In this document: positions 806-15,095 of the stretch, one piece after another
Numbering within the stretch: position 1 is the first letter of the stretch
How the letters are laid out: every line of letters begins with the position of its first letter
Assembly: GCA_027033525.1 (NCBI GenBank)
Contig: JALVLD010000022.1
Coordinates: 1 to 16,824, forward strand
Direction of reading: 5' to 3'
DNA length: 16,824 bases
Origin: Candidatus Dojkabacteria bacterium
GTDB lineage: Bacteria; Patescibacteriota; Dojkabacteria; GCA-002793355
The notes under the pieces: generated by a model
Database searches by the model: none
Seen by the model: only the letters and a program-made list of their open reading frames with translations
Told to the model about the DNA's origin: nothing
Position numbers and translations under genes: made by a program

Positions 806-827
806 AAAACCAACTAAATAAATTAAT

Positions 828-1257: not shown

Positions 1258-1266
1258 ATTATAGCA
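1258..1266 (-). promoter_or_regulatory. Extended -10 box directly before the 84-residue ORF
   Basis: TGCTATAAT on the minus strand, ending 4 nt before ATG 1253. No good -35 is seen at 17 bp, but an extended -10 can work without one. The same 13-mer GATTTGCTATAAT occurs at the ABC-F promoter (916-928). Confidence 0.5.
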
Positions 1267-3291: not shown

Positions 3292-3339
3292 AATAAAATA
3301 TGTAATATATTATCTATGTGCAAAGAAGCAGGCAAAAGA

Positions 3340-4083: not shown

Positions 4084-4112
4084 TTGCAAAAGTAGCCCGA
4101 TTGTGTTATACT
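4084..4112 (+). promoter_or_regulatory. Start-codon-proximal (leaderless) promoter of the small membrane protein
   Basis: TTGCAA (4084-4089), 17-bp spacer, TATACT (4107-4112), then 6 nt to ATG 4119. The expected transcript start coincides with the start codon. TG one base before the -10 makes it an extended -10 as well. Confidence 0.75.
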
Positions 4113-4118
4113 CTTCAC

Positions 4119-4361
4119 ATGAGAAAACTAAAACTTATTAAAAAACTAGGTTACTGGCTCCAAAGCTTTGCCTACATATTGCTTAGCACAAAGCTTAGCG
4201 TACTTGCAGCAGGCGAAGATAGCTCCCCTTACTATGATGATACAGAAGACACTGCAGGGGCATTGGATCCTATAATCACGATAGCTCTAATCGCATATGT
4301 GATTGGGCTACTCCTTTTTCTTTACGGAAAGATGTGGGAGCGCCGCGTAAAAAAACTCTAG
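4119..4361 (+). CDS. Small membrane protein with two hydrophobic segments, upstream of sortase
   Basis: 80 residues, family not recognised. Basic N-terminus (MRKLKLIKK), a first hydrophobic segment at about residues 10-31 that could be a signal peptide (possible cleavage after LAA), an acidic exposed loop (GEDSSPYYDDTEDTAG), a second hydrophobic segment at about 50-70, and a basic tail ERRVKKL. ATG 4119 is chosen because an in-frame TTG 18 nt upstream lies between the -35 and -10 boxes and cannot be transcribed from this promoter. It precedes the sortase by 40 nt and is probably co-transcribed. The layout (signal, loop, membrane segment, positive tail) resembles a sorting signal but has no LPxTG motif, so a role as sortase substrate or partner is only a guess. 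Confidence 0.75.
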   Translation: MRKLKLIKKLGYWLQSFAYILLSTKLSVLAAGEDSSPYYDDTEDTAGALDPIITIALIAYVIGLLLFLYGKMWERRVKKL

Positions 4362-4401
4362 TCTCTTTACAATTACTCAGGTAAGATAAAAAGTTTACAT
4401 T

Positions 4402-5019
4402 ATGTTTACCCGTTTATTAATTAAAACCTATAAAGCATTCGGAGTAATGCTAATGATTCTTGGAATATTACTATTACTTGCTCCTGTCTTGTTAAAGGAA
4501 CAACTTGAATTTGAGGCAATATCTGCCAAGACAAATGATTCCATCATTCTTATTCCAGCGACCTATCATACAAAACAGCCTTTACCCCAACTCCCCCCAG
4601 TAGACCCAAAACTCCCCCAAGGTCATATTATAAAAATCCCACGAATTGGAGTTTATACTTCCATCCTGGAAAGTAAAAATCCAAATGCTGCTTTACGTAA
4701 AGGAGTTTGGCGCGTTTACAACTTCGCAACTCCAATAAGCCAAAAACATGGTTTCCCAATAATTCTTGCCGCACATAGATTCGGATATATCACTTGGAGT
4801 CCAAATTATAGACGTAAAAACTCTTTTGCATATATAAACCAGCTAAAGAACGGCGACATAATATATATCTACTGGGATCAGCGCGAGTTTAAGTATCAAG
4901 TGATCAAAAAAATTATAGATACTAAAATCCCCACATATACGTCTGATCTTATACTATACACATGTGTAACCTTCAACTCTCCTCGCAGACTATTCGTACT
5001 TGCAAAAAGAATTAAATAA
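4402..5019 (+). CDS. Sortase family transpeptidase
   Basis: 205 residues. Sortases are membrane-anchored cysteine transpeptidases that cut a sorting motif in surface proteins and join them to the cell envelope or to each other. Seen: an N-terminal membrane anchor (about residues 13-32), a proline-rich linker (60-73), and a beta-barrel domain with catalytic His in ILAAHRFG (H125), catalytic Cys in LILYTC (C188) and Arg in SPRRLF (R195/R196). All three catalytic positions are present. The short single-domain form with an N-terminal anchor fits the class D/E type, but the class cannot be fixed from sequence alone. No LPxTG substrate is visible in the window. The stop is 8 nt from the 3' end of the convergent tRNA-Val gene. 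Confidence 0.93.
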   Translation: MFTRLLIKTYKAFGVMLMILGILLLLAPVLLKEQLEFEAISAKTNDSIILIPATYHTKQPLPQLPPVDPKLPQGHIIKIPRIGVYTSILESKNPNAALRKGVWRVYNFATPISQKHGFPIILAAHRFGYITWSPNYRRKNSFAYINQLKNGDIIYIYWDQREFKYQVIKKIIDTKIPTYTSDLILYTCVTFNSPRRLFVLAKRIK

Positions 5020-5027
5020 AAATGATA

Positions 5028-5101
5028 TGGGCAGGACAGGACTCGAACCTGTGACCTCTCGGATGTAAACCGAGTGCTCTAACCAGCTGAGCTACCTGCC
5101 C
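5028..5101 (-). tRNA. tRNA-Val (anticodon TAC)
   Basis: 74-nt cloverleaf on the minus strand. The acceptor pairs GGGCAGG (5101-5095) with CCTGCCC (5035-5029), and the discriminator is A (5028). The D arm is GCTC...GAGC. The anticodon stem CTCGG/CCGAG carries loop TTTACAT, giving TAC, which reads GTA (Val). The T arm has GGTTCGAGTCC. No CCA is encoded. Its first 10 bases overlap the end of the upstream yvcK-like gene, whose TAG stop is tRNA bases 8-10. Confidence 0.96.
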
Positions 5102-6099
5102 GGGAAGTACTCTATTATAACACTTTTTATCGCATCAGCCAATTTCTTGGGGTCGTGTCTTATCCTCCCGAACTTATCCAAAAGATAAAAATTGCCCGAG
5201 ATAATCCGCCTTGCATATTTAGATAATTCTTTAGTATCAACTTGAATCAGGGCTGCTCCTTCTTGTCTATATCGTGCTAAGATTTGATTTGACAACTGTG
5301 CTCTATTAACAACAACAATATCAAAAATATTACTCCCTAAAATTTCACTAAACTTTTTTAAATGATCTGAAGCGGAAAAACCATGGGTCTCACCATATTG
5401 GGTCATTAGATTCATTACAAAAACCTTCAAGGCAGTACTATTTATAACAGCTCTTTTTAAATTCTTTACCAAAAAATTTGGCATTAAACTTGTATACAAA
5501 CTGCCTGGCCCAACAATAATAAAATCAGCCTGGCGAATGCGCTTCAACACTAAATCTGGAGCTCTAACTTCTTGTTGTTTGGCAATACGAGGTTCAATCC
5601 ATATATCTACTATCTTGCCCAACATAGCCCTACCATGTTTAGCGATTTCCACTTCACCTTTCACCAGTTCACCGTCCGAAAAACGAGCCACTAGTTGAAC
5701 TTGTTCAACAAGTGAAGGTAAAACCTCACCCTTTAGCTTAAGGATCTTAGAAAGGATCAAAATTGCCTGCAAAAAATCACCATACTCTTCTGTAAGAGCC
5801 GTCAATATAATATTACCTACTGAATGGCCATCTAGCTCTCCGCCATTTTTGAACCGATGCTCTAGCAATTTTTTTAAGGCTGAGGTCGAAGCTAATGCTG
5901 TAATACAATGCCTAACATCTCCAGGTGCAGGTACGGAATCGTGAAATTCTATGATACGCCCAGTGCTTCCACCATTATCTGTCACAGCTACAATAGCAGA
6001 CAACCTCTTTATATACTTAGGGACCAACTCCTTTAAACCTGTAAGCAAAAAGGATAACCCCGTGCCTCCACCAATCGCAACAACATTAATTGGATACAT
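5092..6099 (-). CDS. yvcK: YvcK/GlmR family (CofD-like) protein
   Basis: 335 residues, close to the usual 310-330. The family has the CofD-like nucleotide-binding fold. In Bacillus, YvcK (GlmR) binds UDP-GlcNAc and is needed for growth on gluconeogenic carbon and for normal cell-wall precursor supply. Seen: GGGTG (10-14), DNGGSTGR (41-48), PAPGDVR (57-63), the conserved GHSVGNIILTAL block near residue 95, and IIVGPGSLYTSLMPN in the second half. It starts 17 nt after the eight-cysteine gene with no Shine-Dalgarno, so it is probably part of the same transcript. The last codons and the TAG stop lie within tRNA-Val, so processing of the tRNA 5' end would remove the stop from the message. Confidence 0.93.
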   Translation of the reverse strand: MYPINVVAIGGGTGLSFLLTGLKELVPKYIKRLSAIVAVTDNGGSTGRIIEFHDSVPAPGDVRHCITALASTSALKKLLEHRFKNGGELDGHSVGNIILTALTEEYGDFLQAILILSKILKLKGEVLPSLVEQVQLVARFSDGELVKGEVEIAKHGRAMLGKIVDIWIEPRIAKQQEVRAPDLVLKRIRQADFIIVGPGSLYTSLMPNFLVKNLKRAVINSTALKVFVMNLMTQYGETHGFSASDHLKKFSEILGSNIFDIVVVNRAQLSNQILARYRQEGAALIQVDTKELSKYARRIISGNFYLLDKFGRIRHDPKKLADAIKSVIIEYFPGR

Positions 6100-6116
6100 T
6101 AATTGCTTTAGCTAAA

Positions 6117-6539
6117 TTATTTATCCACACGAACTAGGGCACAATGGTTATTTATACATGCAGCAGTAACATTGCTTCCACACGTCGGATCGTTCGAAAT
6201 ATTTTGGGTACACAACATTTTAGGAGAACGTCTATTCATATATTTTGTAAAGACAGCCTTTTTTGTCCCTAATATAGCAGTAGCCCGTCCTCCAGCACTA
6301 CAACCACAAGGCGGCAAATCTATTCTAATGCACTCGACATCCCTTTTACACGGGGTTGCAAATTCCTTAGGCCCCTTAACTAAAACGTTCACCTCTCTGT
6401 GTATATCTCCACTAGTGTTCGATATGTTATAACATTTATTCTGACAACTACTAAATAACCCTATACCTGCCAATACACCAAGCAAGAATAATACTACCAA
6501 TACCTTACGCTTATGGAAAAAATATAATATATGCCCCAT
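6117..6539 (-). CDS. Secreted or lipid-anchored eight-cysteine protein
   Basis: 140 residues. A basic start (HKRK, residues 9-12) and a hydrophobic segment (13-30) end in LFSSC, an imperfect lipobox, so it is either a lipoprotein with C32 as the first mature residue or a membrane-anchored protein. The exposed part has a cluster of eight cysteines (64, 70, 78, 80, 110, 120, 128, 133) with a CGC motif, a GGRATAI stretch and a closing CxxxxC, suggesting a small disulphide-stabilised domain outside the cell. I cannot name a function. It starts 6 nt after the MFS stop, with GGAGG inside the end of the MFS gene, so the two are likely co-translated. Confidence 0.85.
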   Translation of the reverse strand: MGHILYFFHKRKVLVVLFLLGVLAGIGLFSSCQNKCYNISNTSGDIHREVNVLVKGPKEFATPCKRDVECIRIDLPPCGCSAGGRATAILGTKKAVFTKYMNRRSPKMLCTQNISNDPTCGSNVTAACINNHCALVRVDK

Positions 6540-6544
6540 AGATA

Positions 6545-6558
6545 ATTATACCTCCTTT
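6545..6558 (-). promoter_or_regulatory. Shine-Dalgarno and TATAAT before the eight-cysteine gene
   Basis: Minus strand AAAGGAGG (6551-6558) lies 11 nt before ATG 6539. It is the clearest Shine-Dalgarno in the window, though its spacing is long. It is followed at once by TATAAT (6545-6550), 5 nt from the ATG, but no -35 is seen at 17 bp. The motif sits in the last codons of the MFS gene. Confidence 0.45.
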
Positions 6559-8102
6559 TTTGTGCTAGATGCTGTTTTCATAAGCCAAACTCCTACTACT
6601 ATGAATAAACCTACAAACATCCACACTGAAATTGTCATAACATATTTTATAGAATCCAATACGGCTTGCACAAATCCCCTATACATTTGTTGCATCAAAT
6701 GCGGCGATAGTTGTTTTAATAATTTGGGTATAACTCTAATATCAATTGTACCCTTAGCATTAGCATTAAATTGCCTAATAATTTGTGTATAAAAGTCTGT
6801 GCCCTCAAAAGCATTAAAGAACAAGCTGCCTACGATAGCAGTACCGAATGAAGAAGCTAATCTTCGAATAGTGCTATTAACCCCAGAGGCCTCGCCTGCG
6901 AATTTGGCAGGAACGCCTGTCATTACTATATTGGTCAGCTTTGCCATAATAAACCCAAGCCCTAGACCGAACAAAAAGAATGCTAACACAAAATGTCCTT
7001 CCTTACCATTTATTAAGCTAGAACCTTGCGGAAAACTAAAAAAACGTAATAAAACAGTAGCACTAAGTACAATGCCTGTTCCCAAAAATATAGTAGCCTT
7101 ATCCTTAATATTCCATCTAGCCCCCAAAATAGACGAAACAAATACTCCCACTGTAATTGGCAAAAGCTTAATCCCTGTTGTTAAAGCTGAATAGCCCTTA
7201 AGCAGTTGGAAATATATAGGCAAAATAAACATCATTCCTGCCATAGAAATATTTACCAAAGATGTAACAAAAAGTCCTAAGCTAAACTCTGTATACTTGA
7301 AAATACGTACATTTAACAAAGGTTTATCCTTCTTTAATTGATAATTTGCAAAAATTGCCATAATAAGTACCCCGATCACCATTGCCCATAATGCCGGCGA
7401 TACTCCAGCAATTGCCAAATTTGCTCCTAATAGCTTCAAATCTGTTTTGGCCAAAAACCAGCCATATGCCCGGGACTTCAATATACCCCACATAAACAAA
7501 CTGATTCCTAAAATTGAAAGTACGGCCCCCAAAATATCAACACCTTCGTCTGCCAATGGACGCGACTCTTTTAACTTACGGGAAGTCAAAACAACAAAAA
7601 TTGCCAAACCTACCTGTAATAAAAAAGCATATCGCCAGGAAGCATAAGTTGTAATAGCCCCCCCTATTATTGGCCCTAGAGCTGCACCCACTGAAGCTGT
7701 AGCCCCCCACAGTCCAAACGCCAATGCCCTCTCTTTCCCTTTAAATGTATCGACAATAATAGAGGTTGAAGCCGGCATCATTAATGCAGCTCCAATTCCT
7801 TCTATTACACTCCATCCAATAAATAAGACTGTGCCAGTAGGCGCCAAGGCAGAAAGTAAACTACCAATACCAAACAAAATTGCTCCAAGAGTAAAAATAC
7901 GCCTCCGACCATAAACATCTGCAAGTTTACCCCCCAACAACAAAAATGCACCAGTTACTAATGAATAAAATGTAATCAAAACTTGCATGTTTTCTAAAGT
8001 AATATTCAAGGATGAAGCTACTTGCACTAACGACACATTCATAAGAGTCCCATCTATAACAACCATAAATATTCCTAGGAGTAACGCTATTAAACTTATC
8101 AT
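6546..8102 (-). CDS. MFS drug/proton antiporter, DHA2 (14-segment) type
   Basis: 518 residues, typical of the 14-segment DHA2 family (EmrB/QacA-like), which export drugs or other compounds in exchange for protons. Seen: first segment with the family pattern VIDGTLMNVSL (D17), MFS motif A GKLADVYGRRR (58-68), antiporter motif C within GATASVGAALGPIIGG (133-148), and many further hydrophobic segments up to a last one near residue 500. It begins 12 nt after the adenylate-kinase-like gene and is followed 6 nt later by the eight-cysteine gene, pointing to one transcript from the promoter at 9214-9242. The substrate cannot be told from sequence. A paired exported or surface product in the next gene is possible but unproven. 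Confidence 0.93.
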   Translation of the reverse strand: MISLIALLLGIFMVVIDGTLMNVSLVQVASSLNITLENMQVLITFYSLVTGAFLLLGGKLADVYGRRRIFTLGAILFGIGSLLSALAPTGTVLFIGWSVIEGIGAALMMPASTSIIVDTFKGKERALAFGLWGATASVGAALGPIIGGAITTYASWRYAFLLQVGLAIFVVLTSRKLKESRPLADEGVDILGAVLSILGISLFMWGILKSRAYGWFLAKTDLKLLGANLAIAGVSPALWAMVIGVLIMAIFANYQLKKDKPLLNVRIFKYTEFSLGLFVTSLVNISMAGMMFILPIYFQLLKGYSALTTGIKLLPITVGVFVSSILGARWNIKDKATIFLGTGIVLSATVLLRFFSFPQGSSLINGKEGHFVLAFFLFGLGLGFIMAKLTNIVMTGVPAKFAGEASGVNSTIRRLASSFGTAIVGSLFFNAFEGTDFYTQIIRQFNANAKGTIDIRVIPKLLKQLSPHLMQQMYRGFVQAVLDSIKYVMTISVWMFVGLFIVVGVWLMKTASSTKKEV

Positions 8103-8114
8103 TTGGCTAAATGA

Positions 8115-9206
8115 TTACGTTATCTCAAATATTTCCGATAATTGACGCAAAAATTGAAGTAAAACTGGCGCTGCTAAAAGCGAATAATAATTTTTTCCGT
8201 TATCCTTAACCACCCATGGGGACGTACGCTTTATTATCTTCCCATTCTTATATTCGAACGAATACCTTTCTGTGATCTCATAGTCCTGCACTAAATTATC
8301 TGCATCTTTTACTTCTATGGCATTATACATTTTAATCTTAGGTACTCCATACAATTTTTCGGCAAGTTGCATTAAGTATAAATCTTTTTTTATTCTAGGC
8401 ATAAGAGGCTCAATACCTTTGTCATCGCCTTGTTTTTTGATCAATACTTCTTTATTGCAAGCAGGATTATCGCACATAAACACAAATTCGTCGCCAGCTG
8501 CATCATACTTAACATGCTCACTTGGCAACAAAACCGTACTAAAGGATTTACCGCATTTAGGACAAACGCGTCTGTATTTTATACGCTCATCAATTACAGA
8601 CAGGGGCAAATATATCATTACAAACACGTCTGGATCATTGCGATAATTAATTAATTCTCTGAAATATAAAGAATAACTTACTTGATCCTCAGTCCGCGGA
8701 AAGCCATCTATAAACAAAGTTTTACGAGGTAAAGTATCTATTTTCTTTTTTACCAATGTTAAAATGAGCTCAGTTGGTTTAAGTTTGCTAACATCAGGAT
8801 GCAATAAGGCCTCTACAGCCTCGTTTAACTTTAAATATCCTCTATAGTGCTTCAAAAAATAACTATCGTACTCTTGTGCCTTTTGCTTATACTCTTTTTG
8901 AAACTCCCGAACTATATCTCCTACAGCTATGTAGTTAAAAGTATGTTGCCCCAAGAGCTCACGTAATAAACCTATATACGTGCTTTTGCCAGCATTCTTA
9001 GGAGCTAACCAATAGGCAATAAACGTATGATTTTCCAAAAATTGGGAAATTTTATCTATTAGTTTTCCTGCCTTTACCTTAAAGTATTCCCTGCGTCCTT
9101 TAACTGTATTCAAATCATATGTTTCTGACGTCCTCTTAAATGGAGGAGCAATCGTAGATACTAAACTCAAATTTTCTATGTGGTACTTAAAGCCTATATC
9201 ATCCAT
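8115..9206 (-). CDS. Enlarged adenylate-kinase-like nucleotide kinase with zinc lid
   Basis: 363 residues against about 180-220 for normal adenylate kinase. A kinase core is seen: P-loop APKNAGKST (68-76), IDGFPRTEDQ matching the DGFPRT motif (166-175), a zinc-type lid with C215, C218, C245 and C250, and a GDD...R segment after the lid (260-271). It should transfer a phosphate between ATP and a nucleoside monophosphate in the cytoplasm. Extra parts are about 60 residues before the core and about 80 after it, neither recognised. The P-loop is unusual: the first and fourth positions, normally Gly, are Ala and Asn. ATG 9206 is chosen because an in-frame TTG 36 nt upstream is itself the -35 box of the promoter. 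The substrate may differ from AMP. Confidence 0.85.
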   Translation of the reverse strand: MDDIGFKYHIENLSLVSTIAPPFKRTSETYDLNTVKGRREYFKVKAGKLIDKISQFLENHTFIAYWLAPKNAGKSTYIGLLRELLGQHTFNYIAVGDIVREFQKEYKQKAQEYDSYFLKHYRGYLKLNEAVEALLHPDVSKLKPTELILTLVKKKIDTLPRKTLFIDGFPRTEDQVSYSLYFRELINYRNDPDVFVMIYLPLSVIDERIKYRRVCPKCGKSFSTVLLPSEHVKYDAAGDEFVFMCDNPACNKEVLIKKQGDDKGIEPLMPRIKKDLYLMQLAEKLYGVPKIKMYNAIEVKDADNLVQDYEITERYSFEYKNGKIIKRTSPWVVKDNGKNYYSLLAAPVLLQFLRQLSEIFEIT

Positions 9207-9213
9207 TGCCTTT

Positions 9214-9242
9214 ATAATATAGTAAGTTAATCTTTTTTGCAA
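9214..9242 (-). promoter_or_regulatory. Start-codon-proximal (leaderless) promoter of the kinase-MFS-lipoprotein-yvcK run
   Basis: Minus strand: TTGCAA (9237-9242), 17-bp spacer, TATTAT (9214-9219), then 7 nt to ATG 9206. It lies in the 39-nt gap after the preceding gene plus the start of the frame, so it separates this run from the surface operon upstream. Confidence 0.72.
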
Positions 9243-9281
9243 CCAACACCTAAAACAAGAAGTGACTGTCTTAAATGTCCT

Positions 9282-10265
9282 CTATTTAGTGATAGGTTTG
9301 TCACTACCATTAAACAACACCCAGTCAAAAGTCTCTGGCATTGCAGGATGTAACCATATCATTCTAGTATACTCAGTATATATCTTCTTATTAATTTTAT
9401 CCGCATCTGGACTATATACTCTAGCTGTAAGCACAGCCACTTGTGCACTAGGCAATTGCACAGGTGCTCCATTCTCAACAGGACCGGTAACTGAAACCGG
9501 AAACCTAGAATTAATATCTGCAAGTAGTGCCTTTATTCTGTAGAAAGCAACCGAATCATCCCCGCTTGGAATGACTTCTATTATTTTGGACCCGTATTTT
9601 GAAGAAGCACCCGCCGATTGAGTAACTACAGTAGCGGTATCTAAGGGACCATTCAAGTATGCGGATTTCACGGCCAAATGCCCTAAACAGTCTGGGGAAG
9701 CCACTGCATGTCCTCCCCCATAATTTACCATGCACTCACCAATGGCTTTTAAGCCAGTTCCTTGATCGTACTTATAACCCATTATCAGTAATGTATCTGG
9801 CACGTTCCTATATTGACCAGCCTCTGTATAAATTGCTATGCCTAATTTCGCATTGTGTCGATTGGCTGCAACATCGATTTGAATACTCTCATCATTCTTC
9901 ATGTAGTATTTCACAACTTCCGAATACCTTGTGACGTAAACCTTAGAACCTTCCCCACATCTTTCTTCCACAGGAGCATTAATATCAGTCCTACAAATAT
10001 TTAACTTTGTATCAGACAAATCAAACTCTTTGGCTTCCTCATAATCACTAGGGTGTTCCATAACGTCTTTAGATAATTTGTCCAAAGCCGATAATGCCTG
10101 CTGCTCAGCACGGTCAGTTCCACGTTCTAACACTTCTTGTTGCAATTGCAATTGAATCTTTGACAACATATAAACTAATACTGCAGCAACCACCGCCACA
10201 ACAATTAATACTAACACCAGCGTACTCCCCTTAACTCCTCTATTAATGCTTTTCTTAGACTTCAT
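9282..10265 (-). CDS. PilX-like N-terminally anchored surface protein
   Basis: 327 residues. Basic N-terminus (MKSKKSINRGVKG) followed by GSTLVLVLIVV and a single hydrophobic helix to about residue 34, then a helical, charged stretch (35-75) and a long soluble region. This matches the N-terminal pattern of PilX-type minor pilins (basic, Gly, then a hydrophobic helix without the classic Glu5), so it may be handled by the type IV pilus machinery. That is inference, since no pilus ATPase, peptidase or platform gene lies in the window. Four cysteines (about 91, 103, 178, 193) could form two disulphides. It starts 20 nt after the 1070-residue gene and is the last gene of the surface operon. The function of the soluble part is not known. 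Confidence 0.8.
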   Translation of the reverse strand: MKSKKSINRGVKGSTLVLVLIVVAVVAAVLVYMLSKIQLQLQQEVLERGTDRAEQQALSALDKLSKDVMEHPSDYEEAKEFDLSDTKLNICRTDINAPVEERCGEGSKVYVTRYSEVVKYYMKNDESIQIDVAANRHNAKLGIAIYTEAGQYRNVPDTLLIMGYKYDQGTGLKAIGECMVNYGGGHAVASPDCLGHLAVKSAYLNGPLDTATVVTQSAGASSKYGSKIIEVIPSGDDSVAFYRIKALLADINSRFPVSVTGPVENGAPVQLPSAQVAVLTARVYSPDADKINKKIYTEYTRMIWLHPAMPETFDWVLFNGSDKPITK

Positions 10266-10285
10266 ACCCCATATTCATAAATTTA

Positions 10286-13200
10286 TTAACGCTTATTACA
10301 CCATGGATGATTATTTACACCACATTTAATTGTTTGTACTTTATACTTCCCCAAAAGAGGCTCATACAATTGCATTAGGCTTGGATCAAAAATAATCCAC
10401 TCAGAAGGGAATCTTGTATTATCTGCAAAGACTAAGTCCCTTTCGAAAACTGGCGTCCCCTTGCTATAAATAAAGCCGTGTACAATCAAGGCATCATAAG
10501 TGCCATTATATTTATATTGTTCACGTGGAGTTTGCTTAACTCGCACCTGCCCTTCTTGGGAACCAAAAGCAATAATTCCTAACTGCATAAAATCTGTATC
10601 TGTGGTATCAGCAGAGGATTTCTGCCATTTCTCGCCCATTACAGTAGCTGATTGTTTAGGATCATCATCTAACACTATAGTATTACCACTACCTTCCGCC
10701 AATACGAACAAACATCCTTCAGTATAATCTGCAAACGGGCTTAAGGTGTTATTATTGGCTACACGACTCTTTACCACCTGACCTTTTATTGTAATGTTTG
10801 AATTCTCAACAAAAATTAGGTTCGCATTCTTGCACTTTAATACTCCACCCAGACTTATATTTGCCTTATTCACATAAATAACCTTATAAGTACTAGACTG
10901 AGCCTCAACAGCATCCATAAAAGCACCTAAGCCTCTATCTTGCGCCTGGGCCCCATCAATAGTAATGATCTTACAACTATCAAGCACCCCACATCTTTGC
11001 TTCGCTAAACTCGCCATGTAACTGTACCTACGAGAATCTACATCTATTTGCCGCTTAACTAAGCCAAACCTTGGTTTTACGGAATCAAAAAAGTTACCTT
11101 CATATCCCCAAACAATATCTCCAAAACCATTTGTATTAAGTACCATACTAAAATTGCCCAAAGTCGCCCGCGAGCTAGTAAATGGTGCCAAATAATTCTC
11201 AAATAGATCTTTAACTTTATTATTATTCCCCGCAACAGGATACTCTCTAATAGATAATAATTGGTGGTAATCTGGCAATCCATCAAATCCTCCCTTACTA
11301 TATACGTTATTTAACGAAGTTTTAATCCAATTATTCCCTATCCCTCCAGGCGGCTCAGGAGGAGGGGGAGAACACAAATCATCTTGAGTACATTTAATAT
11401 TTCCTGCAACATCATAAGCACAGACTCCATAAAATATCTTATCCCCGCCCCCCAGCTCAAAGCCAGAAGGCCCAGCTACGTATATTTTAATATTTTGAGT
11501 ATGCCCGCCGTCCTGGCTTGATACACGCAAGTATGGAGCAACATTCTTTAACTGACCATTTTGTACAACTGTTTTACCAAAGATTGTACCATCAACTTTA
11601 TAACTAGTGGGCCTCATCGTGTTAGGATCGACTATATTCAAAAAATATCTAGTCCCGTCCCGCTTCTGCACAAATACATAAGCTGCAAAGAATGCCGGTC
11701 CCTTATCAGTAGGCAATTTATTATTGTCGCTTACGCTGACATTAAATTGCAACACGTCGGCATCATACGGAGAAAGCCCAACTTGTAATTGAGGCAGGGT
11801 ATTGTCTACCAAAAAGCTTACATTGTGGAAATCCTCCGTATACTTAGCGCCCTCTCTATCCTTTGTCCTCACACGAATAAAATACTTACCATCTGGCAAA
11901 CTCCTTTGATAAATCCGCAAATATACCTTCTTAGCGACAGGAGGGTTTTGCAAAATCCTATTAGGCAAGCCATCGACTGCCTTGTAGGCCGGATCACCAT
12001 TATGCAAACTCTGTAATATTTGCCTTACCACACTCCCAGGCACGTCTTCTACCTTAAACCGCATTGTACACAAAATGTTTCCTTGCTGTATGCACGTCCG
12101 TAAGGTTTCAGCTAACGAGCCAGAGACAGTATAAGTTCTATAACCATCAGTTGCGGGAGCTCTATGACTACTTGCTAACCCAACATCATACAAACCAAGC
12201 ACTTGATTTTGAGTATCACCTGTTCCTCTATTGACAGGATACTCTTGCCCACTAGTATTATTTACCAAATAAAAATCCTGATGATCAATATTAAAATCAC
12301 CCGGCCCATTTTCATCCCAGAGAGTCACCTTTAACCAAAATGGATTTGCGTCACCTACTCTGTATTCATAGTTCCTATCATTAGCCAACAAATCGCAAAT
12401 ACCTTTTTGTGCCAATGTATCAACATCTGGAGACTTCAAAAACTGCAGCGGGTCATCACCAATACCGCCAACCCAATCAACAATAGTATCTTGTACTAAT
12501 TTATAAGCTTTCCTTCCATCTAACTGCTCTACGCTTTCCTTATTTCTATCAACCAATTGAACCGTAAGGGCAAAGGTTGGGGGATAATAAACAGAAAGAG
12601 AATGATTACATTGCTGCAAAAACTCATCTTCCACCGGACCAACACTCTTTACCTCAGAAGTTATATCTACATGGCAAATGTTATTAGGATCCAACTGTGC
12701 CTCCACTTGTGATCCTCCTGCAGTTTTAAAAGCTATAGCCTGATTATAGTCACGAGGACGCGAATACCCTCTACTTGAACAATCCATACTTCTAAATTCA
12801 AATGGGACAAATTGCGGAAACTCTCTGTTATAATTATTGGCATATACAATGCTTCCGCAAGCCTTAGTGGAATAACCGAAGGCATTTATACGAAACATAT
12901 CACCCCTATCATACTCAGAAGCCTTATACACTCCAGACGCTATACTATTAAACCGCACATTCGTAGGTAAAGTTATACTACACGTTGGAGGCGTACTTGA
13001 GGCCGTCTCAGCTGTATTCGTTTTAGGCTCCCTACTACAAGAATGTTCTGAAGAGCACACATAATAAGTACAAGAGGACGTTCCATTACTACTCTCTCTA
13101 CATGCGGTTGCTGGTACAGAATCTCCGGGATCGCAAGGTGGCTCTGACGTACAATTACACCTATAACAAGTCACGTTATTCTTGCATCCGTGGTAAGGAG

Positions 13201-13498
13201 TTGACTGCCATTCACAATCGGATTCCGAACCATGCTTTTCATTCCAGTTGCAGTACTGACTAGTTTTTTCACTACAACCAACTCCTTCCCCAGCATGACA
13301 ACTAGGATACCATCCTGCCTCCTCCCAACAAGTTGCAAGACATTCTTTATGACCATTTGGATAATGAAAACCACAACACGCGAAAACATCACAGTCGTCC
13401 CCTGCTTTAACACTACCTCCCCCCACAACAAACACCAAGGCAACACTAAGTACCCATAAAATAATTATAAACCATTTATTTTGCAATCGAAATTTCAT
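10286..13498 (-). CDS. Large secreted cysteine-rich surface protein
   Basis: 1070 residues, family not recognised. A clear signal peptide (hydrophobic 9-28, likely cleavage after VKA at 32) is followed by a dense cysteine region with 19 Cys between residues 36 and 173. Next comes a long beta-rich part with Ig/cadherin-like patterns (for example a DNTLPQ boundary and SVSDNN), a proline-rich hinge PPPPEPPGG near 710, and a C-terminal region rich in short beta strands (NLIFVENSNITIKG) ending in a block with FPSEWIIFDP. No C-terminal anchor or LPxTG is visible. ATG 13498 is preferred over the in-frame TTG two codons earlier. It overlaps the end of the 527-residue gene by 23 nt and precedes the PilX-like gene by 20 nt, so it is probably an adhesin or tip-like part of a surface structure (inference). 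Confidence 0.85.
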   Translation of the reverse strand: MKFRLQNKWFIIILWVLSVALVFVVGGGSVKAGDDCDVFACCGFHYPNGHKECLATCWEEAGWYPSCHAGEGVGCSEKTSQYCNWNEKHGSESDCEWQSTPYHGCKNNVTCYRCNCTSEPPCDPGDSVPATACRESSNGTSSCTYYVCSSEHSCSREPKTNTAETASSTPPTCSITLPTNVRFNSIASGVYKASEYDRGDMFRINAFGYSTKACGSIVYANNYNREFPQFVPFEFRSMDCSSRGYSRPRDYNQAIAFKTAGGSQVEAQLDPNNICHVDITSEVKSVGPVEDEFLQQCNHSLSVYYPPTFALTVQLVDRNKESVEQLDGRKAYKLVQDTIVDWVGGIGDDPLQFLKSPDVDTLAQKGICDLLANDRNYEYRVGDANPFWLKVTLWDENGPGDFNIDHQDFYLVNNTSGQEYPVNRGTGDTQNQVLGLYDVGLASSHRAPATDGYRTYTVSGSLAETLRTCIQQGNILCTMRFKVEDVPGSVVRQILQSLHNGDPAYKAVDGLPNRILQNPPVAKKVYLRIYQRSLPDGKYFIRVRTKDREGAKYTEDFHNVSFLVDNTLPQLQVGLSPYDADVLQFNVSVSDNNKLPTDKGPAFFAAYVFVQKRDGTRYFLNIVDPNTMRPTSYKVDGTIFGKTVVQNGQLKNVAPYLRVSSQDGGHTQNIKIYVAGPSGFELGGGDKIFYGVCAYDVAGNIKCTQDDLCSPPPPEPPGGIGNNWIKTSLNNVYSKGGFDGLPDYHQLLSIREYPVAGNNNKVKDLFENYLAPFTSSRATLGNFSMVLNTNGFGDIVWGYEGNFFDSVKPRFGLVKRQIDVDSRRYSYMASLAKQRCGVLDSCKIITIDGAQAQDRGLGAFMDAVEAQSSTYKVIYVNKANISLGGVLKCKNANLIFVENSNITIKGQVVKSRVANNNTLSPFADYTEGCLFVLAEGSGNTIVLDDDPKQSATVMGEKWQKSSADTTDTDFMQLGIIAFGSQEGQVRVKQTPREQYKYNGTYDALIVHGFIYSKGTPVFERDLVFADNTRFPSEWIIFDPSLMQLYEPLLGKYKVQTIKCGVNNHPWCNKR

Positions 13499-15059
13499 AT
13501 GCAAGCAACAAACTTAAAATTTTATCTTGATATGGCAAAAATGCCCCCGAATTATCATAATTTACGACCATATTCCGAGATGCCTGCAAAAATGGCCCGT
13601 TATAGGGGTTAAACTCTGAGGCACTATAAATATAATATGCCAATGCTTTTTTATCGTATGGGTAATCAAGCACAAAGAATTTACCTTCCCCAAAATTCAT
13701 AGCTCGTCCATAAATTCTCGACAGCACCAACGCATGTAACAAAGCCCTAGATGCTTTAGGCAAATGTTCATAGTTATCCTTCGGGATGTATACCTTACCT
13801 TTAACGTATTTATAGTACGCTGCAGAATTATAATTTGAAACAGCCAACGATACCTCAGCGCCACTCCAACCTAAAAGCGGTATAGCAGTTTGGCCTGGAG
13901 TCTGTATTTTCTGCAATTCCACTAAATCCTTCACGTCTTTAATAAAGATGTTATAAGTGTCTAAGAAAAACTCTTTTAACTCTTTATCACTCTCGGTCAA
14001 TCCCACTGGCGCAACAGGTGCCACATACGGAACTATAAAACCCCATTTATCTTTTGTACCTCCCTCAGTAACCTTTGGGTGATAATTTATAAAATGTTTA
14101 TAAGTTGCTTCCTTCAAAGTTGTAAACAAGTCATGATCCCTATAATACAACGTGTACAGATACAACATATATGAGGCTCCAGGACTCACCGAACCATTGC
14201 TAACACATTTATTTTTATCACATTTTTGGTATGCACCACTAAACAAATCTACGATATTGTTAAAGAATTCAACCCGTCCAGCCGTTTGTGTTACATCAAA
14301 AACATGAAGTGCATTTTTCACTTTTCCCGTGTACCAGTCTGTAACTTTTTGGGCCCACTTATCCAAATAAACATCGTATTGGTCATCATTTGCGTTTTTA
14401 AAGTACTCGGCAGCTGTTCTTAATTTAGAAACACGCCAGGACAAAAGCTGCTCCGGAAGTATGTCTTTACTATGTTTGACATACACAACATAAGCATGTC
14501 TTATCAAATCTTTAACGGATGGATGTAGATATCGACTCATATTTATACGTAACTCGACTCGCGCTGGGATCGCCACTGGATCACCTGCAAATAGATGCGT
14601 ATAGCTGTCCACTGATAAAAGCTTATGGTCTAAAAATTCTTGCGGTTTATAATGGTTTACATCCGGCACTGTAAAAACAAACTCCCCTTTCAATCTTTTT
14701 CGCAAGCTAGAGGCAGGCATGTCCCGCATCATTTGGAGTACCTCCGAATACGGAACAAACGAAAAATAATAGGTAGCCTTCTTCCCGTCCCTATGTATTT
14801 TATAAAGTAAAGCATAATCCACCTTAACTGTCACGTTCTTAGCCTTTTTATCTACTTTATATGAAAACTTGTAACCCGGAAATGCTGGAAACGGCGTATC
14901 AAATAGACCAGATTGCCAAGTATCCATAGTATGCCAAACCATATCTAAAAACCTATATCCCAAATATCCTCCTGTGCCTATAACCAAGAAAAACAGGGAT
15001 AAAATAATGATCCTCCTGGTCAATTTATTAATTTTTATTACAAACTTTATAACTCCCAT
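13476..15059 (-). CDS. Membrane-anchored 527-residue surface protein, unknown function
   Basis: Family not recognised. A basic N-terminus (KINKLTRR) and one membrane segment (about residues 17-34) suggest an N-terminal anchor with the rest outside the cell. The first exposed part (50-200) looks beta-rich. The remainder looks mainly helical and rich in Tyr and Phe, with only two cysteines, in QKCDKNKC. It is the first gene of the three-gene surface operon, has its own start-codon-proximal promoter, and overlaps the next gene by 23 nt, which suggests coupled translation and a shared complex. An anchor, scaffold or chaperone role for the large secreted protein is possible but not shown. The TAA stop at 13476 leaves a tail of EISIAK. 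Confidence 0.82.
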   Translation of the reverse strand: MGVIKFVIKINKLTRRIIILSLFFLVIGTGGYLGYRFLDMVWHTMDTWQSGLFDTPFPAFPGYKFSYKVDKKAKNVTVKVDYALLYKIHRDGKKATYYFSFVPYSEVLQMMRDMPASSLRKRLKGEFVFTVPDVNHYKPQEFLDHKLLSVDSYTHLFAGDPVAIPARVELRINMSRYLHPSVKDLIRHAYVVYVKHSKDILPEQLLSWRVSKLRTAAEYFKNANDDQYDVYLDKWAQKVTDWYTGKVKNALHVFDVTQTAGRVEFFNNIVDLFSGAYQKCDKNKCVSNGSVSPGASYMLYLYTLYYRDHDLFTTLKEATYKHFINYHPKVTEGGTKDKWGFIVPYVAPVAPVGLTESDKELKEFFLDTYNIFIKDVKDLVELQKIQTPGQTAIPLLGWSGAEVSLAVSNYNSAAYYKYVKGKVYIPKDNYEHLPKASRALLHALVLSRIYGRAMNFGEGKFFVLDYPYDKKALAYYIYSASEFNPYNGPFLQASRNMVVNYDNSGAFLPYQDKILSLLLAYEISIAK

Positions 15060-15066
15060 TACTTAA

Positions 15067-15095
15067 AATATACACTACTCGTGCTATAATTGCAA
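15067..15095 (-). promoter_or_regulatory. Start-codon-proximal (leaderless) promoter of the surface operon
   Basis: Minus strand: TTGCAA (15090-15095), 17-bp spacer, TATATT (15067-15072), then 7 nt to ATG 15059. Its -35 shares base 15090 with the plus-strand -10 of the tRNA-Arg promoter, so the two promoters overlap head to head. Confidence 0.75.
15082..15090 (+). promoter_or_regulatory. Extended -10 promoter of tRNA-Arg
   Basis: TGCTATAAT, with TATAAT at 15085-15090. The expected start is near 15097, 12 nt before the tRNA. The -35 at 17 bp (CTTAAA) is weak, which an extended -10 can compensate for. Confidence 0.6.

Follow-up and report, generated by a model that had tools for sequence, protein, structure and literature searches.

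Promoters placed against the start codon, and a second element near -20, in a Dojkabacteria genome without an excess of Shine-Dalgarno sites

How does translation begin on a message whose promoter stands almost against the start codon? The question is raised by a 16,824-nucleotide stretch of Candidatus Dojkabacteria bacterium DNA (contig JALVLD010000022.1 of assembly GCA_027033525.1; the whole stretch is called the window here), in which three genes carry a TTGCAA hexamer, a 17-nucleotide spacer and a TATA-type -10 hexamer only 6 or 7 nucleotides (nt) before the ATG. A preliminary description of the window had proposed that such genes would be transcribed without a leader. Direct reading gives the same sites, coordinates and spacings: TTGCAA-N17-TATACT-6 nt-ATG at 4119 on the plus strand, and TTGCAA-N17-TATTAT-7 nt-ATG at 9206 and TTGCAA-N17-TATATT-7 nt-ATG at 15059, both on the minus strand. 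The features are as follows.

4084..4089, plus strand: TTGCAA, -35 hexamer of the 4119 gene, exact, spacer 17
4107..4112, plus strand: TATACT, -10 hexamer, 6 nt before ATG 4119
4119..4361, plus strand: open reading frame (ORF) of 80 amino acids, predicted leaderless
9237..9242, minus strand: TTGCAA, -35 hexamer of the 9206 gene
9214..9219, minus strand: TATTAT, -10 hexamer, 7 nt before ATG 9206
8115..9206, minus strand: adenylate-kinase-like gene (Pfam PF00406), predicted leaderless
15090..15095, minus strand: TTGCAA, -35 hexamer of the 15059 gene
15067..15072, minus strand: TATATT, -10 hexamer, 7 nt before ATG 15059
13476..15059, minus strand: gene of 527 amino acids, predicted leaderless

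These three sites are part of a pattern that runs through the whole genome, G000 (866,015 bases, 194 contigs, 88.6% complete), of which the window is contig C22. The family of G000 also holds G001 and G003, and the class, Dojkabacteria within the Patescibacteria, was assigned via relatives. Four family genomes (G000, G001, G003 and G006) were compared, with 1.05 Mb available for counts made free of gene calls. The own genome was sampled as the window plus 60 contigs picked by number and not by motif; 22 of these 61 are readable (190.7 kb), while the other 39 were left out because their letters are N (72 of 263 kb). Loci L111, L122, L131, L132, L176 and L177, partly or wholly N, were dropped, their readable parts entering the gene-call-free counts except for L131 and L132, and the outside-class samples of G068, G071, G085, G103 and G118 were dropped too. 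The scan of the genome contigs gave one distant record only. No gene finder was used: in each ORF of at least 100 amino acids the first ATG served as the start, and transcript-leading genes were separated from operon genes by distance alone. Contig C1, probably of foreign origin, was excluded from the resulting set of 21 contigs (85 leading genes, 52 operon genes, 676 internal in-frame ATGs) and from the promoter, ortholog, -20 and gene-call-free counts; it is included where 88 leading genes or 694 internal ATGs are given, namely in the Shine-Dalgarno (SD) counts and the comparison with relatives at gaps 4-8.

An exact TATAAT ending 5-7 nt before the ATG is present at 26/85 leading genes, 3/52 operon genes and none of the 676 internal ATGs (Fisher 4e-27, leading versus internal). 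With one mismatch allowed, the TA and the last T being kept, the counts rise to 39/85, 5/52 and 11/676 (Fisher 1e-31). Leading genes outside the window give 26/79 and 37/79 for the two measures, and 1000 dinucleotide shuffles of the 85 leading genes gave means of 0.8 (exact) and 4.0 (one mismatch), with maxima of 5 and 12. The gene-call-free count places 96 TATAAT-gap-ATG sites at gap 5, 38 at gap 6, 28 at gap 7 and 19 at gap 8; the remaining gaps from 0 to 19 hold 7-24 sites each (mean about 13), including 9 at gap 3 and 14 at gap 4. Over the same 1.05 Mb no gap peak was found for GTG, TTG, CTG, ATA, ATT, AAG or ACG, so that ATG is the sole codon of the eight with a peak. The whole own genome contains 145 TATAATN5-7ATG against 56 TATAATN15-17ATG and, with one mismatch and a gap of 4-8, 42/88 leading genes have the site, versus 11/88 at the control gap of 14-18. 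The proposed promoter-to-ATG architecture is real, genome-wide and bound to ATG; it implies leaderless transcripts, with 5' ends predicted from the promoter position.

Because the first ATG of each ORF was chosen, and because the alignment with some orthologs sets in only after 20-26 residues, one may ask whether the flagged ATGs are upstream decoys, the real starts lying downstream behind ordinary leaders. A decoy, however, is not expected at a fixed distance of 5-7 nt, and neither the seven other codons nor the internal ATGs show a peak, which makes this explanation highly improbable.

The character of the sites was examined in 153 adjacent-TATAAT promoters (gap 5-8, at most one mismatch) from the four family genomes. 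A TTG stands at spacer 17 in 31/153, against 0-8 at other spacers; spacers 16-18 together account for 45/153, the fourth base being C in 19, A in 12, T in 9 and G in 5. The extended -10 signature TGn accompanies 56/153, with 10 expected. Only 7/153 combine TTG (16-18) with TGn and 59/153 have neither, the rarity of the combination being the familiar trade-off between a -35 box and an extended -10. We take the adjacent-TATAAT sites to be ordinary sigma-70-type promoters, which would give leaderless mRNAs. It could be argued instead that the hexamer is an A/T-rich translation element, a ribosome-binding motif and no promoter, as it is bound to ATG, occurs in a lineage without SD excess and is present in operon genes of the relatives (9/43, 9/40 and 17/94). 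Nevertheless, it comes with TGn and with a TTG spaced at exactly 17 nt, both of them features that RNA polymerase recognizes, and in the own genome the hexamer is concentrated in leading genes (39/85 versus 5/52 in operon genes); we regard a purely translational role as very improbable.

The identical TTGCAA boxes had further been suggested to mark a promoter class of this lineage. A scan of the whole genome found 21 exact TTGCAA-N17-TATNNT sites versus 3 for the reversed pattern, and three of them stand beside ATGs on one contig, so the motif does exceed chance. It is mostly not start-adjacent, however: only 5/21 have an ORF of at least 80 amino acids with its ATG 5-7 nt downstream, the flagged genes being three of these five. 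Moreover, just 3/45 of the TTG boxes in the promoter set are TTGCAA, the box at 15059 overlaps a -10 hexamer before tRNA-Arg, and in G006 a gene distantly related to that at 15059 (22% identity, L152) has TTGACA-N17-TACACT-5 nt-ATG. The idea of a distinct class was not borne out, and we give it a very low probability. At the other four loci checked for the 15059 gene, L151 has TATAGT 9 nt off, L155 comes straight after another reading frame, and there was no match at L153 and no candidate ATG at L154. A fourth exact TTGCAA-N17-TATNNT in the window, at 13486-13458 on the minus strand, falls within the opening codons of the 10286-13504 ORF, and no ATG of a long ORF follows it at 5-7 nt. Between 15067 and 15109, the promoter that serves the 15059 gene on the minus strand overlaps a plus-strand TATAAT (15085-15090) located 18 nt before the tRNA-Arg; these divergent promoters have bases in common, and TTGCAA is its own reverse complement.

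If leaderless genes are one part of the answer, the SD signal is the other place to look. We tested for GGAG, GAGG or AGGA at -20 to -4, with internal ATGs as the reference. Own genes show no excess, with 5/88 leading and 4/52 operon genes falling below the 86/694 of internal ATGs, in agreement with the lack of SD sites described for the flagged genes; the AAGGAGG at 6539 is an exception. The same test gave 10/24 leading and 5/11 operon genes versus 13/295 in E. coli, and 28/124 and 13/51 versus 119/1119 in Patescibacteria outside the class. Strong anti-SD pairing occurs at 4% of own leading and 13% of own operon genes (shuffles 3% and 8%, internal ATGs 18%), while E. coli has 42% and 45% (shuffles 25% and 29%, internal 13%). 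Counting GGAGGN5-9ATG against GGAGGN25-29ATG gave 81/83 in the own genome, 791/759 in seven class members and 14905/11392 in 108 non-class Patescibacteria, 20 of them significant. SD sites are without clear excess in eight class genomes. On contig C1 (L022, 1-6527), an SD of at least 5 bases precedes 4/4 genes tested, and Kre9_KNH-domain proteins occur there (3/3 searched).

The anti-SD itself has been kept. All five full-length 16S rRNAs of relatives (L098-L102), inspected as the preliminary description had proposed, retain ACCTCCTT (CCTCC), and their 3' ends read G[GA]AATTACCTCC / G[GA]AATTACCTCCTT, against GGATCACCTCC / GGATCACCTCCTT in E. coli. At most a few nt beyond the anti-SD, these relatives have its complement (GGAG or AGGAG), and a short hairpin could cover the anti-SD. 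B. subtilis has a similar hairpin in its pre-rRNA, so the structure may be a processing stem.

What, then, stands before the genes that lack an adjacent TATAAT? These have an A/T-rich peak near -20, where motif searches in three of the four family gene sets returned TAAtTTAA, aTAAttTA and TaAgTTtA. T[AT]ANTT starting at -22 to -18 is found in 14/43 leading and 13/46 operon genes of the own genome, compared with 4/42 leaderless genes and 12/676 internal ATGs. It is clear also in G001, G003, G006 and G055 and, in G026, for leading genes only; in E. coli it is not raised. Unseen test sequence from G003 gave 16/106 leading, 14/77 operon, 2/53 leaderless and 17/1593 internal (Fisher 8e-12 each for leading and operon versus internal; 0.03 for leading versus leaderless). 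Where the upstream gene overlaps the start, the motif is still present in 18/95 cases over five sets (own 6/15, unseen G003 3/37).

Expectation maximization (EM) on all 520 non-leaderless genes produced the motif aTAANTTaA, with a likelihood of 261 versus 49-57 in four shuffles. In most cases the first T falls between -21 and -19, the shares being nearly equal. A posterior above 0.9 was reached by 124/520 genes (the training set), 4/210 leaderless genes, 5/520 random internal ATGs, 6/160 genes outside the class and 1/35 in E. coli. The same procedure outside the class returns aAAAGGAGa, which is the SD; on 35 E. coli genes the SD was not recovered, making this a weak control. The element is not the in-frame stop demanded by picking the first ATG, because its first T is spread evenly over the three phases. 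An artifact of first-ATG picking was rejected as an origin of the element: the leaderless genes, picked alike, mostly lack it. Six of the eight non-leaderless genes in the window score a posterior above 0.5, three of them above 0.9:

6112..6120, minus strand: predicted -20 element ATAATTTAG before ATG 6099 (CofD-family gene, Pfam), posterior 0.95
10278..10286, minus strand: predicted -20 element ATAAATTTA before ATG 10265, posterior 0.98
13509..13517, minus strand: predicted -20 element TTAAGTTTG before ATG 13498, posterior 0.77
8115..8123, minus strand: predicted -20 element ATAACGTAA before ATG 8102 (MFS), posterior 0.89, poor TAANTT fit
819..827, minus strand: predicted -20 element ATTAATTTA before ATG 805 (gene runs off the left end), posterior 0.97
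4381..4389, plus strand: predicted -20 element GTAAGATAA before ATG 4402 (sortase), posterior 0.89, poor TAANTT fit

Two other roles for this element were weighed. The first is pairing with 16S rRNA, given that the relatives have AATTA directly before the anti-SD and that TAATT is complementary to this stretch, at which E. coli reads differently from all five. Such pairing needs a T at the fourth motif base, which is at background, and its geometry would place the AATTA stretch nearer the start codon than -20. We rejected this candidate on both grounds and consider it improbable. The E. coli 16S region near 458-466, presumably complementary to a known A/U-rich enhancer, has no counterpart in any of the five relatives. 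The second possibility is that RNA is processed at the element, or that leadered transcripts have their 5' edge there. Among 16 motif-bearing leading genes of unseen G003, seven TATAAT sites (one mismatch) lie 25-34 nt upstream, and operon genes could be cut at the element. However, leading transcripts that would already start near the element need no cut, and it also lies inside overlapping upstream genes, in the 18/95 cases above, so that a processing site or transcript edge seems rather unlikely.

Taken together, we propose that this lineage no longer relies on SD sites and uses two other routes to start translation, leaderless mRNAs and genes with a -20 element. On the first route, the TATAAT of a sigma-70-type promoter ends some 5-7 nt ahead of the ATG, and the natural +1 would be the A of this codon; the mRNA would thus have no leader, and the initiator tRNA on the ribosome would meet a 5'-terminal AUG. 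Leaderless messages are read through a 5'-terminal AUG according to the accessible part of PMC10783764. The genomic pattern of this route is present in about 30-45% of own leading genes and in 26-34% of those of three relatives, background not subtracted, and the three flagged TTGCAA genes are of this kind; the 5' ends and the leaderless start would follow from it.

On the second route, many other leading genes, and operon genes, would use TAANTT(A)A starting about 20 nt before the ATG. Some leading genes have a TATAAT 25-34 nt upstream; their leaders would then measure about 20-28 nt and carry the element close to the 5' end. The element may recruit the 30S subunit through ribosomal protein S1 or a neighboring protein and not by rRNA pairing. 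E. coli S1 contacts mRNA about 11 nt upstream of the SD (PMC5397173, accessible part). Docking by S1 or a neighbor appears most likely because the -20 position matches this contact site; the element is most likely a non-SD ribosome docking site, perhaps for S1. An S1-like gene is found in G003 (31.6% over 291 amino acids), and G055 has a weak match. The stronger statement is that in a whole bacterial class, its anti-SD still intact, SD pairing has given way to TAANTT(A)A, about 20 nt before the ATG, as a sequence-specific docking element read by a ribosomal protein, used alongside leaderless mRNAs in a two-way division of genes; this we hold tentatively, as somewhat short of even.

How widely does the start-adjacent promoter extend? 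Measured with one mismatch and a gap of 4-8, adjacent TATAAT is present in the leading genes of G001 (25/89), G003 (31/96), G006 (16/48), G055 (11/38) and G019 (8/40), and in 53/159 of unseen G003 sequence; 50 kb of E. coli gave 0/24. Among 116 Patescibacteria, TATAATN5-7ATG versus TATAATN15-17ATG amounts to 524/288 in seven class members and 5443/3614 in 108 others, 22 of which are significant after Bonferroni correction. The outside-class gene sample shows a weak signal (14/124 near versus 11 at gap 14-18). High near/far ratios outside the class occur in G159 (187/40), G103 (53/9) and G124 (17/2); by the same test there is an SD excess in G159 and G103 and none in G124.

Several observations weigh against the two-route proposal. 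As regards the promoter, adjacent TATAAT is scarce in G026 leading genes (2/40) and stands at 3/19 in G014. The relatives' operon genes carry it too (9/43, 9/40 and, in unseen G003, 17/94), so the classes made by distance are not clean. Orthologs share its placement no more often than the base rate would give: over 35 pairs compared, the relative has it in 2/11 where the own leading gene does and in 2/12 where the own leading gene does not, and for the 9206 gene it was kept in 0/6 relatives compared. As regards SD sites, there are hints of use in G001 leading genes (12/89 versus 88/846 internal) and in G003 operon genes (7/40 versus 78/754; unseen G003 8/94 versus 181/1593). Strong anti-SD pairing reaches 12% and 14% in family f5 (shuffles 4% and 1%, internal 17%), and G030 has the highest near/far GGAGG counts of the class (181/144). 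Among 24 genomes bS21 is kept in 23 and initiation factor 3 (IF3) in 22, no 16S was found in the own bin, and no S1 was found in its 191 readable kb.

The -20 element meets difficulties of its own. It is missing in G014 (1/16 and 0/4) and in G026 operon genes (1/18), and in G019 the motif is not position-specific (6/32 near versus 5/32 far). EM on G001, G003 and G006 leading genes gave another, TATAAT-like motif, and on the pooled other class members it gave GATATAAT. On internal ATGs the procedure reaches a higher likelihood, 318, through a codon-periodic motif, and the likelihood alone is therefore no proof. A posterior above 0.5 separates less well than the stricter cut: 255/520 in the training set, 34/210 leaderless, 42/520 internal, 42/160 outside the class and 5/35 in E. 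coli. The ortholog concordance at base rate and the G019 result reduced our confidence in both the proposal and its docking form; for the former we retain a probability of about 0.78.

Three further genes of the window had been described with a promoter close to the ATG. The hexamers are there, and their role as promoters is doubtful or ambiguous:

1258..1263, minus strand: TATAAT, 4 nt before ATG 1253; gap 4 not enriched, doubtful
3295..3300, minus strand: TATTTT, 3 nt before dnaK ATG 3291; gap 3 not enriched, doubtful
6545..6550, minus strand: TATAAT, 5 nt before ATG 6539; overlaps the MFS stop codon 6546-6548, ambiguous
6551..6557, minus strand: AAGGAGG before ATG 6539; encodes the final MFS residues

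For the 1253 ORF and for dnaK, the latter read as TTGCAC-N17-TATTTT, a leaderless start is unsupported because gaps of 4 and 3 are at background. At 6539 the AAGGAGG stands directly before the TATAAT. Here, between 6537 and 6557, the end codons of the MFS gene and its stop read AAGGAGGTATAAT, an SD-like plus a -10-like string before the ATG. As for the proteins of the flagged genes, the 80-amino-acid ORF (4119..4361) has no Pfam match and no relative at E 0.001 in seven other family genomes. The adenylate-kinase-like protein has a 49% relative (L089) in G055, which is filed in family f5; all its remaining strong matches among 57 genomes fall in family f1.

Actinobacteria, Deinococcus-Thermus and other phyla with TA-led leaderless genes use SD sites as well. 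The known TA-led genes of these and other groups (Zheng et al. 2011, PMC3160421) resemble ours, as far as the accessible part of that work describes them, in a TA-type -10 about 10 bp before the start, which in low-GC genomes is TAtAAT with a TG peak before it. The Dojkabacteria differ in having no SD excess and a dominant gap of 5, and Patescibacteria are not among the groups named in that part. SD-poor groups such as Bacteroidetes and Cyanobacteria have AT-rich pre-start signals ascribed to leaderless mRNA or S1 (Nakagawa et al. 2017, PMC5397173). The likeness to them, on the accessible text, lies in few SD genes and AT-rich signals, leaderless genes there being mostly single or first genes; unlike them, there are two separate signals here, TATAAT by the ATG and TAANTTAA near -20, in different gene sets. 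The E. coli A/U-rich enhancers that act with S1 (PMC2176067, accessible part) are likewise A/U-rich, the position about 20 nt upstream being deduced from PMC5397173; they add to an SD, whereas here the sequence is recognizable and no SD excess follows. The "leaderless" of PMC12641178 and PMC6851277 concerns other matters in the accessible parts of both.

Among the literature matches listed, none reports TA-led leaderless genes or SD loss in Patescibacteria, and the combination of leaderless genes with a -20 element was not found in print, the literature on the element having been covered by general searches only. Leaderless genes are of a known kind; what appears new, in that we did not find it in print, is their combination with a -20 signal in genomes without SD excess. 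In such genomes, gene finders that give weight to SD sites may put starts in the wrong place; TATAAT 5-7 nt from the ATG and TAANTTAA near -20 offer direct start signals for an uncultured group. The lineage is also a natural test of SD-free start finding in cells that have kept the anti-SD, IF3 and bS21.

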